This document shows positions 21,825 through 30,369 of a DNA stretch of 31,458 nucleotides, one piece after another (the first letter of the stretch is position 1; each line of letters begins with the position of its first letter). Made by a program: the position numbers and the translations under genes. The DNA lies in IMG/VR virus record IMGVR_UViG_3300009506_000132, positions 1 to 31,458 of that record; one strand, given 5' to 3'. Under the pieces are notes generated by a model. That model did not search any database. It was not told where the DNA came from and saw nothing but the letters and a program-made list of their open reading frames with translations. This DNA comes from a virus.

Positions 21825-22772
21825 TTACGAGGTGGTCAGGTCACGAATGACGAACGAGGACTTCTCGTTGCAGGCCTCCAGAGTGTACTCCGAGAGGATT
21901 TGCTTCCGATCAGTGTCGCCGGTTTTTGCCAGCTCCTCGGTCACCATGTTTCGGCCCGGGAGGAATGCGACCTTCCAATACTCCATGTCCAGCCCGAACA
22001 CGTTGCTCGCGCTGGTGAAGCGATCGGGCACCAGCTTATAGTTCCCGAAGTCACCTTCATAAATATCGAAGGTGGCATGGAGGGTCTTGTCCTCCGCCTT
22101 CTGAACCTTGGTGCCGCCGCCGAAGGTGGAGGCAATCTGCCGGTTGAAGGAGCCGCTGAGCAGGATGCCCGGGTTGCCACCGTTGTCCCAGCAGGTCTTG
22201 CCGACCGTCTTGAGCATGTCCTCGGTGAACTGGCGGGCGGTGCCGGCGACGTAGGCGTCGGTGCCGTCACCCGTGGGCTCGGTGCCATCGCCAGCGTTGC
22301 TGACGGCGGTGATGATCCACGAGGGAACACCCGCCAGCTCGCGCGGCGTGGTGTCGTTGCCGGCGACACGGGCGTTGTCCGCGAGGAGCATCTTCTCCAT
22401 GTCGCGCTTCAGCTCACGGGCACGCTTGAGCATCTGATAGTCCATCTCGTCGGCGCGGCCGGCGGTGGTCACAGAACGAGCGGTGCCGGTCACGCGAGCA
22501 ACCTTGTCGGAGATTTGCGTATAATTTCCCCGGCGGGTGGTCGGTGAGCTGGCGTCAGTGGTGGCGTCGTCACCTTCGATAACGACGTTGGTGCCGGACG
22601 CAGCGGCGAGGCTGTCGACCTGCCATTCGTGGTAGGTGTTGGTAGCCTCGTTATGGGCCGCCATCGACAGGAACGGCACCTCCACGGGGGAGACGTCGTA
22701 AATGACATCAGAAAGGTCTTCTCTGATACCGACCATATCGTTGGTGGCGTAGGTATTTGACGGCTGAGCCAT
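21825..22772 (-). CDS. Major capsid protein (SU10/DUF5309-like)
   Basis: 315 residues. Begins MAQPSNTYATNDMVGIREDLSDVIYDVSPVEVPFLSM, the typical start of the SU10-type (DUF5309) HK97-fold capsid family. It is followed by ATNTYHEWQVDSLA, GNYTQISDKVARVTGTAR (about 93-110) and a long spine helix (MDYQMLKRARELKRDMEKMLL, about 119-140). The end is beta-rich. Length fits the family. The preceding gene is the scaffold and the portal lies upstream, the standard head order. It is followed by a hairpin, as often seen after capsid genes. Confidence 0.87.
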   Translation of the reverse strand: MAQPSNTYATNDMVGIREDLSDVIYDVSPVEVPFLSMAAHNEATNTYHEWQVDSLAAASGTNVVIEGDDATTDASSPTTRRGNYTQISDKVARVTGTARSVTTAGRADEMDYQMLKRARELKRDMEKMLLADNARVAGNDTTPRELAGVPSWIITAVSNAGDGTEPTGDGTDAYVAGTARQFTEDMLKTVGKTCWDNGGNPGILLSGSFNRQIASTFGGGTKVQKAEDKTLHATFDIYEGDFGNYKLVPDRFTSASNVFGLDMEYWKVAFLPGRNMVTEELAKTGDTDRKQILSEYTLEACNEKSSFVIRDLTTS

Positions 22773-27298: not shown

Positions 27299-27487
27299 CT
27301 AGCGTTTCCTTGGTGGCACCTTGGCCCCGCGCTGCCGGGCTTTGTTGAGGGCAATGGCTGTCCGTTGCTTCTCAGCCGCTTCCGGCCCCTTTGAAGTGAA
27401 CGTCTCGAAGACGCTCTTCGGCATATTTCGGTGAACCTCACGGAAGGCCCGATTGATCGCCTTGCGCGACTTCGTCAGCTTCTTCAC
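27299..27487 (-). CDS. Small basic protein after terminase
   Basis: 62 residues from GTG 27487, coupled to the terminase stop as GTGA. It is strongly basic (KKLTKSRKAINRAFREVHRNM; KARQRGAKVPPRKR). The 'EKQRTAIALNKARQRG' segment resembles small phage proteins of the DUF6496 type ('K-Q-A-I-A-I-A-L-S-x-A-R'). Probably nucleic-acid binding; the role is unknown. It is followed by an 82-base gap that contains the 14-bp motif. Confidence 0.62.
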   Translation of the reverse strand: MKKLTKSRKAINRAFREVHRNMPKSVFETFTSKGPEAAEKQRTAIALNKARQRGAKVPPRKR

Positions 27488-29094
27488 GCCGCCGCCCTTT
27501 CCAGTATCTTGTTTGGGTCAACCTTGGCGAAGATGTGCTTCTCATGTGAGTTGGTGTCGGCTACGCCAACCGCTTCAGCAAGGGCAGTCATCCCGTCAAT
27601 CCTTCCACGCGATCGGCTCTTGTCGAGCTTGCGGTTGCCAGCTGCGTCCATCTTGGTGACGGCATTGCCGGCACACATGGTCAATACTGGATGCATGCCA
27701 TGACGAAGCTTTTCATTCAACAGCAAACCCTCCAGCGCCCTTAGTGCCGGAGCCATCGATACGAAGCCCTGACCGAAGTCGACAAAGACGTTGTCGACCT
27801 GCGCCTCCGTCAGCCCAGCCTTGATTAGCCACGGGCGAAGATGGCGCATGTTGTAGCGGTCAAACCCGATCTTGCGGATGTCGTACTTGTTCATGGCGGC
27901 CACGATGCGCTCGGCAACGTAGCTGTACTCGATGCTCTTGCCGGGAGTGAGCTGCAGGTAACCCTGCTTGGCCCAGACATCGTATTGAACCCGGTCCTTC
28001 CGCGACCGCTCTTCGATGCCATGCTCAGGCAGCCAGAAGGTGGCCTCGACGTCGTAGAACCCCTTGCCGGCCTCACCGATCAAAACAAATGCCGTGAGGT
28101 CGTTCACCTCCGATAGGTCGAGCCCACCATAGGCGACGCGAAGCTTCTGTGGTTTCGCCCCGTTGGCCTTCCAGACGCCGATGCTGACGAACGGATTATA
28201 GGCCTCGACGCGCTGGTTCAGGATGAGGTTGCGGAACTCCGCCTCCCGCGCCGGCATGCGCTTGGCAGCCTGCGCCATGTCCATAATCTCACGCTCGTTC
28301 TGGAAGTCGCCAAATGCCGGGTTTGCCAGTCTGATGGTCGCTTCCTTGAACGGGTCGAGATTGTCCGGGGCGGTGTAGAGGGAAATCACCGTCCTCGGGT
28401 CCTGCCCGGTCAGGGCATCGTCTATGAGCACGGACAGTAGGTCGTTGGCAGCTGGTGCCTGCGTGGAGATGATGATCGACAGCGGCGCGTCGTGGGCCGA
28501 GGTCGCCGTCTCCAGCGCATCGTACAGCGCATGTTTTGGGCCGCGCACCTGCCCCAGCTCGTCATGGACGAGAAAGATGGGCGACTTGCCCATGGCGGTG
28601 CTGGCGTCCGCGCTGAGGGCCGAATAGACCGTGCCACGCACAGGGCAGTAGATTTGCTTCACCGTCTCCCGGATGTTCACATACGGCGGACGCAGCGTCG
28701 GCGACATCCGAGCCATCTTGGCGGCCAGCTGAAAGAGCAGCGCAGCCTGATCGCGAGATAGGGCGGAGCTGTATAGCTCGGTGTTGATGACGCTCTCAGG
28801 ACCGCAGAGGTGCAGCAGGAGCAGAGCAGCCGCAAGTGCGGTCTTCCCGTTCTTGCGGCCGAACGACAGGATGGCCCTGCGCGTCCCGGCCGGGTTGTCG
28901 TAGATTTTCACCATCTCTCGGCGCTGCCACCCCCGCAGGAGGAACGGCTGTCCGGCGTGACGCCCGACCGGGATAACTACGTGGTCCTTGATCCAATTGA
29001 TGTTCCGCTCGGAACGCCAATTGTCAGGCTTCCCACGGCTGCTTTTCGCGGCTGCTCGTGCGGGTCGTTTCCGGGTCGTCATTATGTCGGCCAC
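27484..29094 (-). CDS. terL: Terminase large subunit
   Basis: 536 residues from GTG 29094 (ATG at 29082 is also possible). ATPase domain: Walker A GRKNGKT (79-85), Walker B IFLVHDE (173-179) and coupling motif ISTQAP (209-214). Nuclease domain: YGGLDLSEVNDLTAFVLIG (322-340) with catalytic Asp326, and VGFDRYNM-type segment near residue 415. This is the HK97/P27-associated Terminase_1 type. It powers DNA translocation into the prohead and cuts concatemers. It overlaps the small terminase gene by 59-71 bases and is coupled to the next gene. Confidence 0.93.
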   Translation of the reverse strand: MADIMTTRKRPARAAAKSSRGKPDNWRSERNINWIKDHVVIPVGRHAGQPFLLRGWQRREMVKIYDNPAGTRRAILSFGRKNGKTALAAALLLLHLCGPESVINTELYSSALSRDQAALLFQLAAKMARMSPTLRPPYVNIRETVKQIYCPVRGTVYSALSADASTAMGKSPIFLVHDELGQVRGPKHALYDALETATSAHDAPLSIIISTQAPAANDLLSVLIDDALTGQDPRTVISLYTAPDNLDPFKEATIRLANPAFGDFQNEREIMDMAQAAKRMPAREAEFRNLILNQRVEAYNPFVSIGVWKANGAKPQKLRVAYGGLDLSEVNDLTAFVLIGEAGKGFYDVEATFWLPEHGIEERSRKDRVQYDVWAKQGYLQLTPGKSIEYSYVAERIVAAMNKYDIRKIGFDRYNMRHLRPWLIKAGLTEAQVDNVFVDFGQGFVSMAPALRALEGLLLNEKLRHGMHPVLTMCAGNAVTKMDAAGNRKLDKSRSRGRIDGMTALAEAVGVADTNSHEKHIFAKVDPNKILERAAA

Positions 29095-29452
29095 CCAAGC
29101 TTGTGCGAGCGATGCCCAGACGGACGCCGAAGGACGCCAGCGTCTTGGTCTCCCGATTGAGCATCGAGAGCAGCTGGCTGAACTCCTTCACGTCCGGGTC
29201 CGACTTCTTGGCAGTGATCTTGTCGATCATGTTGCCAATGCGCCGAGCGTTGACGGCGTGCCTGCAGTAGGCCTCCAGCATTGGCCACGTCGCCCGGGGG
29301 AACCGATCGCTTGGATAGGCCGCTACAATTTCCGTCCACTCTTTCTTCTCCGAGGCCGGCAGGTAGCTGGGGGGTTTGGGGGCTCCAGCCGGCACCTTTA
29401 TCGCTGCAGCCACTTCCATCTCGGCTGCGGGTTTCTTCCCTCGCGCTCCCAC
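29024..29452 (-). CDS. terS: Terminase small subunit (P27 family)
   Basis: 142 residues from GTG 29452 with AAGGAGA 7 bases upstream. It matches the P27/Terminase_4 pattern: basic start, PPSYLPASEKKEWTEIVAAYPSDRFPRATWPMLEAYCRHAVNARRI (about 27-72), and a helical oligomerisation region (EFSQLLSMLNRETKTLASFGVRLGI). It recognises the packaging site and recruits the large subunit, encoded next. The end overlaps terL out of frame. Confidence 0.88.
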   Translation of the reverse strand: MGARGKKPAAEMEVAAAIKVPAGAPKPPSYLPASEKKEWTEIVAAYPSDRFPRATWPMLEAYCRHAVNARRIGNMIDKITAKKSDPDVKEFSQLLSMLNRETKTLASFGVRLGIARTSLGGRHNDDPETTRTSSREKQPWEA

Positions 29453-29599: not shown

Positions 29600-29830
29600 C
29601 TACTCTCCGGGGTAAGCCTGCGCCTTGACGGCCCACATGGCTGCATCCTCGAAGTTCGTCAGGGCGATCTGACGGCGTCTGCCTCTCGTTACGTTCTTCT
29701 CAATGTAGGCCATCAGATCATCTGTCTTGTGCTTGATGGTGCTGATGACCGGGTCGCCGGATGGATTGAACTCCGGCTTGGTCGATGTGTTGGGGCCGCG
29801 AGCGGCCCCGGGCGCTGTTGCTTGTGACAT
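29600..29830 (-). CDS. Acb2/Tad1 hairpin-domain protein (anti-CBASS / anti-Thoeris sponge)
   Basis: 76 residues. After a Pro/Thr-rich start (PNTSTKPEFNPSGD) comes a helical hairpin: VISTIKHKTDDLMAYIEKNV then RQIALTNFEDAAMWAVKAQ. The second helix matches the family ending 'R-x-x-x-x-A-x-T-x-x-E-x-A-x-M-W-A-V-K-A'. Acb2 and Tad1 proteins bind cyclic di/trinucleotides or gcADPR, blocking CBASS and Thoeris signalling. Length fits the family. The ATG at 29830 has AGGAGAG upstream, 7 bases after the Tad2-like stop. The identification is by motif; binding specificity cannot be read from sequence. Confidence 0.75.
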   Translation of the reverse strand: MSQATAPGAARGPNTSTKPEFNPSGDPVISTIKHKTDDLMAYIEKNVTRGRRRQIALTNFEDAAMWAVKAQAYPGE

Positions 29831-29837
29831 GGCTCTC

Positions 29838-30089
29838 CTATGCCGGTTGGTAGTGGCGGCTGGTTTCGCACCAGTCGTTGGCGAGGGCGTCTGCCTGAGA
29901 CGCCTGCCAAGGGGTGACCTCGCCTGTCGCCGTCTTCATCGCGATGAAGGGGACATGGACGAGGTGCGAGTGCCCATCTGCTGCGGCCCACGTCAGAATT
30001 TTGAAGAGATACATCCCCTTCCCATTCCAGCCAGACCGCGAGACGAAGCGCCCCGCGTTGAGCAGTTCGATTGCTTCACCGAAAGTCAT
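29838..30089 (-). CDS. DUF2829 / Tad2-like anti-Thoeris protein
   Basis: 83 residues from ATG 30089 (an in-frame start at 30128 overlaps the upstream gene by 53 bases). The product MTFGEAIELLNAGRFVSRSGWNGKGMYLF matches the DUF2829 start ('M-x-F-G-x-A-x-x-x-L-x-x-G-x-x-V-x-R-x-G-W-N-G-K-G-M'), and IAMKTATGEVTPWQASQADALANDWCE matches its end ('I-x-M-K-x-A-x-G-x-x-x-P-W-x-x-S-Q-x-D-x-L-A-x-D-W'). Tad2, the characterised member, sequesters gcADPR-type signals of Thoeris and in some variants CBASS dinucleotides. It overlaps the preceding gene by 14 bases and immediately precedes the Acb2/Tad1-like gene. Confidence 0.88.
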   Translation of the reverse strand: MTFGEAIELLNAGRFVSRSGWNGKGMYLFKILTWAAADGHSHLVHVPFIAMKTATGEVTPWQASQADALANDWCETSRHYQPA

Positions 30090-30369
30090 AGTAGATTTTC
30101 TCCCCATTAACCCGATAAGGCCGCGCACCCTTGAGAGAACACGGGGCCGTCTGTTTGCCGGCGTGCTCGCCCGATAGGATGGTCACGACCCGGTAGTTGT
30201 GCCTGTAGACCTCCGACTTGATCATGCCGGCTTTCCATAGCGCCGTCATGCTGCCGGCGTGGATGGGTCCATGGGGATTGCTCTGTGGGCAGCGCTCGCC
30301 CTTGACAGCGGCGTCGACCAGAAGCTGGAAGTCATCCCATTGGGTTTTGTCTAGATCAGTAATGCTCAT
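30076..30369 (-). CDS. Hypothetical protein of the anti-defence block
   Basis: 97 residues. MSITDLDKTQWDDFQLLVDAAVKG is followed by ALWKAGMIKSEVYRHNYRVVTILSGEHAGKQTAPC, which may be a small alpha/beta domain. No family recognised. The ATG at 30369 follows AGAAGGGAC. It overlaps the Tad2-like gene by 14 bases and so is probably co-translated with it; a defence-related role is possible by association only. Confidence 0.68.
   Translation of the reverse strand: MSITDLDKTQWDDFQLLVDAAVKGERCPQSNPHGPIHAGSMTALWKAGMIKSEVYRHNYRVVTILSGEHAGKQTAPCSLKGARPYRVNGEKIYYDFR

Follow-up and report, generated by a model that had tools for sequence, protein, structure and literature searches.

The window analysed here is an entire IMG/VR record of 31,458 bases, possibly itself a genome fragment. 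Two short neighbouring genes on its minus strand encode P0001, a member of the Tad2-like (DUF2829) sponge family, and P0002, a hairpin protein of the Acb2 type. The features of this region, in the direction of transcription, are the following:

30076..30369, minus strand: 97-aa ORF with no family assigned (sequence, profile searches); upstream gene in the same run
30090..30105, minus strand: Shine-Dalgarno sequence GGGGAG 5' of the Tad2-like gene (sequence)
29838..30089, minus strand: Tad2-like (DUF2829) sponge family protein P0001, 83 aa (PF11195, 87.1 bits; AF2 model, pLDDT 90.6; Foldseek)
29831..29837, minus strand: 7-bp intergenic gap (sequence); the AGGAG Shine-Dalgarno of P0002 spans this gap and the TAG stop of P0001
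29600..29830, minus strand: Acb2-type hairpin protein P0002, 76 aa (PF24729, 37.4 bits; IMG/VR relatives; AF2 hairpin)
29024..29452, minus strand: terminase small subunit, next downstream gene on the same strand (phrog_12559, 87.9 bits)
27484..29094, minus strand: terminase large subunit, TerL (PF20441/PF03354, phrog_9)

The translated ORFs read MTFGEAIELL... for P0001 and MSQATAPG...MWAVKAQAYPGE for P0002, and the sequence bears out the position and 7-base spacing given in the preliminary description, with both ORFs on the minus strand. Each gene has its own Shine-Dalgarno sequence, GGGGAG for P0001 and, for P0002, a site within TAGGAGAGCCATG, whose AGGAG overlaps the stop codon of P0001. The 3' end of the 97-aa ORF, relatives of which are absent from the fetched loci, overlaps the start of P0001 by 14 bp, while the two genes sit directly upstream of those for the small and large terminase subunits. 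Judged by this geometry, the arrangement of P0001 and P0002 is operon-like. Family searches of the full 31,458 bases found no second copy of either family, and PADLOC returned nothing. A synteny comparison showed that the TerL neighbourhoods of relatives of the window TerL are without the Tad2-Acb2 pair. The phage itself is mosaic: its TerL, at 48-59% identity, is closest to those of PAJU2 and HK022-type phages, and its major capsid protein (21825-22772) to Sinorhizobium and Bradyrhizobium phages (45-47% identity).

P0001 matches the Pfam family PF11195 (Tad2-like) with an E-value of 1.2e-24 and 87.1 bits, against a cut-off of 25. An AlphaFold2 (AF2) model, for which 60 window and locus sequences served as input, reaches a mean pLDDT of 90.6, and a Foldseek search of the PDB with this model returned 24 chains at E<=2.3e-6, every one named Tad2 or AcrIIA7; among them are structures solved with gcADPR, His-ADPR or cGG as ligand. 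The TM-scores of these top 24 matches, normalised by target length, range from 0.60 to 0.86; nothing else was found at E<=0.001, and the next PDB match has an E-value of 0.7. The residues that are invariant in 60 aligned Tad2s (R18, G20, W21, M26, P60, W61, S64, Q65, D67, D72 and W73) are all present in P0001, and in the model G20, W21 and M26 lie in the β1-β2 loop (19-26), and P60, W61, S64, Q65 and D67 in the β4-α3 loop region, which includes the stretch 61-67. The gcADPR pocket of Tad2 is made up of the β1-β2 and β4-α3 loops (sponge review, PMC12043709); alignment and model together indicate that P0001 keeps the invariant residues in the loop regions named there as the ADP-ribose pocket. 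The insertion between β2 and β5, which bears a separate cyclic-dinucleotide site in some Tad2s (PMC12043709), is short in P0001, with 33 residues from the GM motif to the PW motif, against at least 43 in most Tad2s with a long loop. By profile match and predicted fold, P0001 is a Tad2 family member with the Tad2 fold; it is a putative sponge for ADP-ribose signals.

P0002 matches the Pfam family PF24729 (Acb2_Tad1_hairpin) with an E-value of 3e-9 and 37.4 bits, against a cut-off of 27 (37.1 bits in the search of its own record). At least 152 relatives are present in IMG/VR. P0002 is divergent, with 33-46% identity to relatives. AF2 predicts a hairpin of two helices (27-46/50-72) with a very short inter-helix turn, but not the short N-terminal helix that comes before the two long antiparallel helices in Acb2; the first ~20 residues are of low confidence and predicted to be disordered. 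No strand is predicted in the 76 residues, so the N-terminal β-sheet domain of Tad1 is absent. The earlier assignment to an Acb2/Tad1 hairpin is therefore narrowed: the hairpin stands and the Tad1 type falls away, since P0002, as far as profile and model tell, is Acb2-type, consisting of the hairpin only. With both proteins above their Pfam cut-offs, and with a Tad2 fold modelled for one and a helical hairpin for the other, the description of two unrelated folds encoded by adjacent genes holds, here with an operon-like layout, as does that of the 83-residue product as Tad2/DUF2829, whose fold matches Tad2- and AcrIIA7-named structures only.

Residues F21, N22, P23, K33, R51, A56 and E61-K69 are invariant in all 53 aligned sequences of the P0002 family. 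In T4 Acb2, the exchange Y8A abolishes binding and T68M lowers it (PMC12657230). The counterpart of T68 in P0002 is the conserved T58. The position of Y8 lies 15 residues before the conserved lysine in canonical-type Acb2s; P0002 has no tyrosine there, and its nearest aromatic residue is the invariant F21, 12 residues before K33 and so three residues closer than the Y8 position. Because the tyrosine is absent and Phe21 is shifted by three residues, the dinucleotide site around this position may differ or be lost in P0002, while the hairpin appears intact. Fold comparisons of the hairpin with the PDB (Foldseek, VIA-align) gave no Acb2 match and generic helical hairpins only, which is uninformative for such a simple fold, and a phmmer search of the PDB with P0002 gave no match. 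The P0002 family profile reaches T4 Vs.4, Tad1 and Acb2 homolog 43 at weak E-values only, and no match to P0002 was found in plasmids.

How often the two families adjoin in other phages was analysed in 400 IMG/VR loci, fetched with five queries and scanned with profiles built for this analysis; direct adjacency was defined as a distance of <=150 bp, and the record sets of the queries overlap in part. As each query contributed its best 80 matches, the prevalences are rough: directly adjacent pairs were found in 2/80 and 3/80 loci for two Acb2 queries, in 6/80 with the window Tad2 as query, in 0/80 for a long-insertion Tad2 query, and in 25/80 for a short-insertion Tad2 clade, the last enriched by choice since its seed was a paired member. 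About 3-8% of the loci not chosen for pairing are directly paired, and pairing is thus not obligatory. Where both families co-occur, they are close together. After removal of duplicates, the two genes are no more than 150 bp apart in 24 of the 27 Tad2-anchored loci with an Acb2-like gene (expected 1.1) and in 5 of 10 Acb2-anchored loci (expected 0.4), the expected counts assuming even placement in a model that ignores phage operon structure, with some relatedness remaining. The pairs occur in both gene orders, frequently with start/stop overlaps of 4 (ATGA) or 1 bp. The Acb2 partners of Tad2 span at least four subtypes, most of them confirmed by Pfam and one by profile-profile comparison; the latter (SYGKRLVGF..., the L147-type) falls below the Pfam cut-off and was matched at 99% probability. 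On the Tad2 tree, which has weak branch support, the paired/unpaired state changes at least eight times. The compact cassette of the preliminary description thus gains support beyond what was given there, since the pairing comes back elsewhere with its gene order and partner varying from phage to phage.

The short Tad2 insertion was considered as a marker of pairing and rejected: raw counts were 24/81 against 3/114, yet p was 0.04 at 80% clusters and 0.36 at 70%. On the Tad2 tree, its link to pairing has one supported independent contrast only, and the hint of complementarity, significant in the raw counts, fades after correction for relatedness. Among 24 short-Tad2 loci of bacterial genomes, one has an Acb2-like gene, about 250 bp off.

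A second CBASS sponge also adjoins Tad2. N4 gp48 is Acb4, shown experimentally to be a sponge (PMC12657230), and Acb4 corresponds to PF13876 (PMC11722364). N4 gp48 scores 119.5 bits against this family and gp49 84.4 bits against PF11195, and the two genes overlap by one base. In all 8 of 8 distinct Tad2 loci holding an Acb4-like gene, it lies within 650 bp (expected 1.2 with even placement), whereas Acb2 and Acb4 are neighbours in 0/3 cases among the fetched loci, a comparison of small numbers. Three single ORFs score above the cut-off for both PF13876 and PF11195:

L434, 798-1352: Acb4-Tad2 fusion, ORF47 of Pasteurella phage Pm86
L140, 4599-5267: Acb4-Tad2 fusion
L413, 7680-8264: Acb4-Tad2 fusion, Campylobacterota MAG

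In Alcaligenes phage QDWS595, an Acb4-Tad2 fusion is followed by a separate Acb4 gene and this by the terminase small subunit, a gene order that resembles the layout of the window. No description of this pairing or fusion was found in the open-access papers covered here, and an earlier mention elsewhere is possible.

Other domain combinations were seen in these loci. An N-terminal domain with the pattern YIGTK...RGW..P...EGYLVEY...GYISWSPK..FE..Y precedes the Tad2 domain in N4 gp49 (L432, 1255-1734) and in L098, L410 and L433, and comes after Acb4 in L091; no Pfam match is reported for this extra domain of gp49. Two ORFs with two DUF2829 halves (L021, 3916-4380; L037, 2396-2806) precede an Acb2-like gene by about 400-600 bp, and the second half of the L037 ORF looks degenerate. 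In Aeromonas phage Ahp1_CNU-2021 (L430, 2968-4896), a short Tad2-like gene is directly upstream of one for nicotinamide phosphoribosyltransferase; this enzyme salvages NAD+ and could likewise act against defences that deplete it. The 188-aa protein SUFG_00048 of Sulfitobacter phage phiCB2047-B (L431, 2617-3183) joins an RyR domain (PF02026, 40.5 bits) to a PF24729 hairpin (33.4 bits), a possible composite nucleotide binder. Curiosium gp3 and gp5, encoded beside the Tad2 of this phage, have no Pfam match.

The TerL-portal gap was compared in a podophage group defined by TerL proteins that are 74-100% identical. The gap holds Acb2 alone in L229, L186 and L231, Tad2 followed by Acb2 in L147, L156, L252, L262, L269, L272 and L275, and Acb2 followed by Tad2 in L299 and L249. 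In L248 (4527-5251), it holds an Acb2-Tad2-Acb2 triplet whose gene ends overlap or almost do so and whose two Acb2s belong to different subtypes. In L311, TerL is preceded by Tad2 and followed by a canonical Acb2. Going by gene order, the sponge genes of this group are swapped as units at one site.

P0001 and P0002 probably form a two-gene counter-defence module, with Tad2 directed against the ADP-ribose signals of Thoeris and Acb2 against the cyclic oligonucleotides of CBASS (rough probability 0.7). What is observed is the membership in the two families, the Tad2 fold, an operon-like geometry, and a pairing of Tad2 with Acb2 or Acb4 that recurs, varies in gene order and in some cases takes the form of a fusion. 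By analogy with the named families, nucleotide binding, the exact ligands and phage protection would extend to P0001 and P0002. A single mRNA would then yield both sponges: the Tad2-like protein would sequester gcADPR or His-ADPR from TIR proteins, such that the Thoeris effector stays off, and the Acb2-type hairpin would lower the free cyclic oligonucleotides, such that CBASS effectors stay off. Two alarm chemistries would be blocked at once. More broadly, the repeated pairing of Tad2 with Acb2 or Acb4 points to phages that package inhibitors of two different immune alarms together. A tentative generalisation, with odds slightly below even, is that Tad2 frequently serves as half of a dual-signal module, overlapping or fused with Acb2 or Acb4 and selected to blunt Thoeris and CBASS together, with the fused chain serving as a two-chemistry sponge.

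The main alternative is that both sponges merely share an anti-defence island or hot spot, as neighbours without a functional link. Acb genes are known in such islands (PMC11722364), the TerL-portal gap of one phage group accepts varied sponge combinations, and pairing is the minority state overall. However, co-occurring Tad2 and Acb2 genes are adjacent far above the even-placement expectation and have stop-start overlaps in both orders. A purely random island is disfavoured because Tad2 joins either CBASS sponge, with Acb4 even in one chain, while Acb2 and Acb4 are not neighbours (0/3, small numbers), and the island explanation is considered rather unlikely. It is distinctly less probable that the pair is redundant, with both sponges binding cyclic dinucleotides, which would raise the dose or widen the affinity range against CBASS. 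Such redundancy would fit those Tad2s that also bind cyclic dinucleotides through the β2-β5 insertion (PMC12043709) and the two Acb2 genes flanking one Tad2 in L248, but the insertion of P0001, at 33 residues, is short, and 3'3'-cGAMP is not a ligand of SPO1 Tad2 (PMC11722364).

The least probable explanation, and a very doubtful one, is that P0001 is an anti-CRISPR protein (AcrIIA7-like) or has another phage job, and that P0002 no longer binds a ligand. The Tad2-fold proteins of PDB entries 8kbi and 9kzr bear the anti-CRISPR name AcrIIA7, yet the AcrIIA7/HgmTad2 chain was itself solved with 1',2'-cADPR and cGG, which shows that the Tad2 fold binds nucleotides. Loss of binding would be in line with the divergence of P0002 and its disordered N-terminus, but P0002 has kept all residues that are invariant in its 53 relatives, including K33, R51 and EDAAMWAVK.

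Sponges are usually studied singly. If a recurring module of Tad2 and a CBASS sponge, extending to fusion in a single chain, is real, phages would encounter the two defences within one cell, and the two blockers would be inherited as a unit. The pair of tiny genes makes layered evasion of nucleotide signalling by one phage directly testable, and the genes beside Tad2 offer a search rule for new sponges.

Among known systems, Tad2 (DUF2829; SPO1 gp34.65, HgmTad2, ModTad2) corresponds to P0001 in PF11195, fold and the invariant GWNGKGM and PW..SQ.D..DW motifs; P0001 differs in being shorter, with a reduced β2-β5 insertion. Functional Tad2s are tetramers that bind gcADPR or His-ADPR and act against Thoeris, and functional Acb2s are hexamers that bind cyclic di- and trinucleotides and act against CBASS. 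P0002 corresponds to Acb2 (PaMx33/PaP2 gp24, T4 Vs.4, Acb2 homolog 43) in the PF24729 hairpin, size, conserved threonine and ExAxMWAxKA helix, and differs as an FNPS-type protein with no tyrosine at the place of T4 Acb2 Y8 and a very short inter-helix turn. The C-terminal hairpin is common to Tad1 and Acb2, but Tad1 has an N-terminal β-sheet domain where P0002 has only ~20 disordered residues. Like the window phage, SPO1, which carries Tad2 and Acb4, and T4, which carries Acb1 and Acb2, have several nucleotide-signal inhibitors per phage (PMC11722364); that paper describes no adjacent pair or fusion. In N4, as in the window, a Tad2-like gene (gp49) adjoins a CBASS-type sponge gene (gp48, a proven sponge of CBASS signals), the two N4 genes overlapping by one base; the N4 sponge is Acb4 (PF13876) where the window has Acb2, and gp49 carries an additional domain at its N-terminus.
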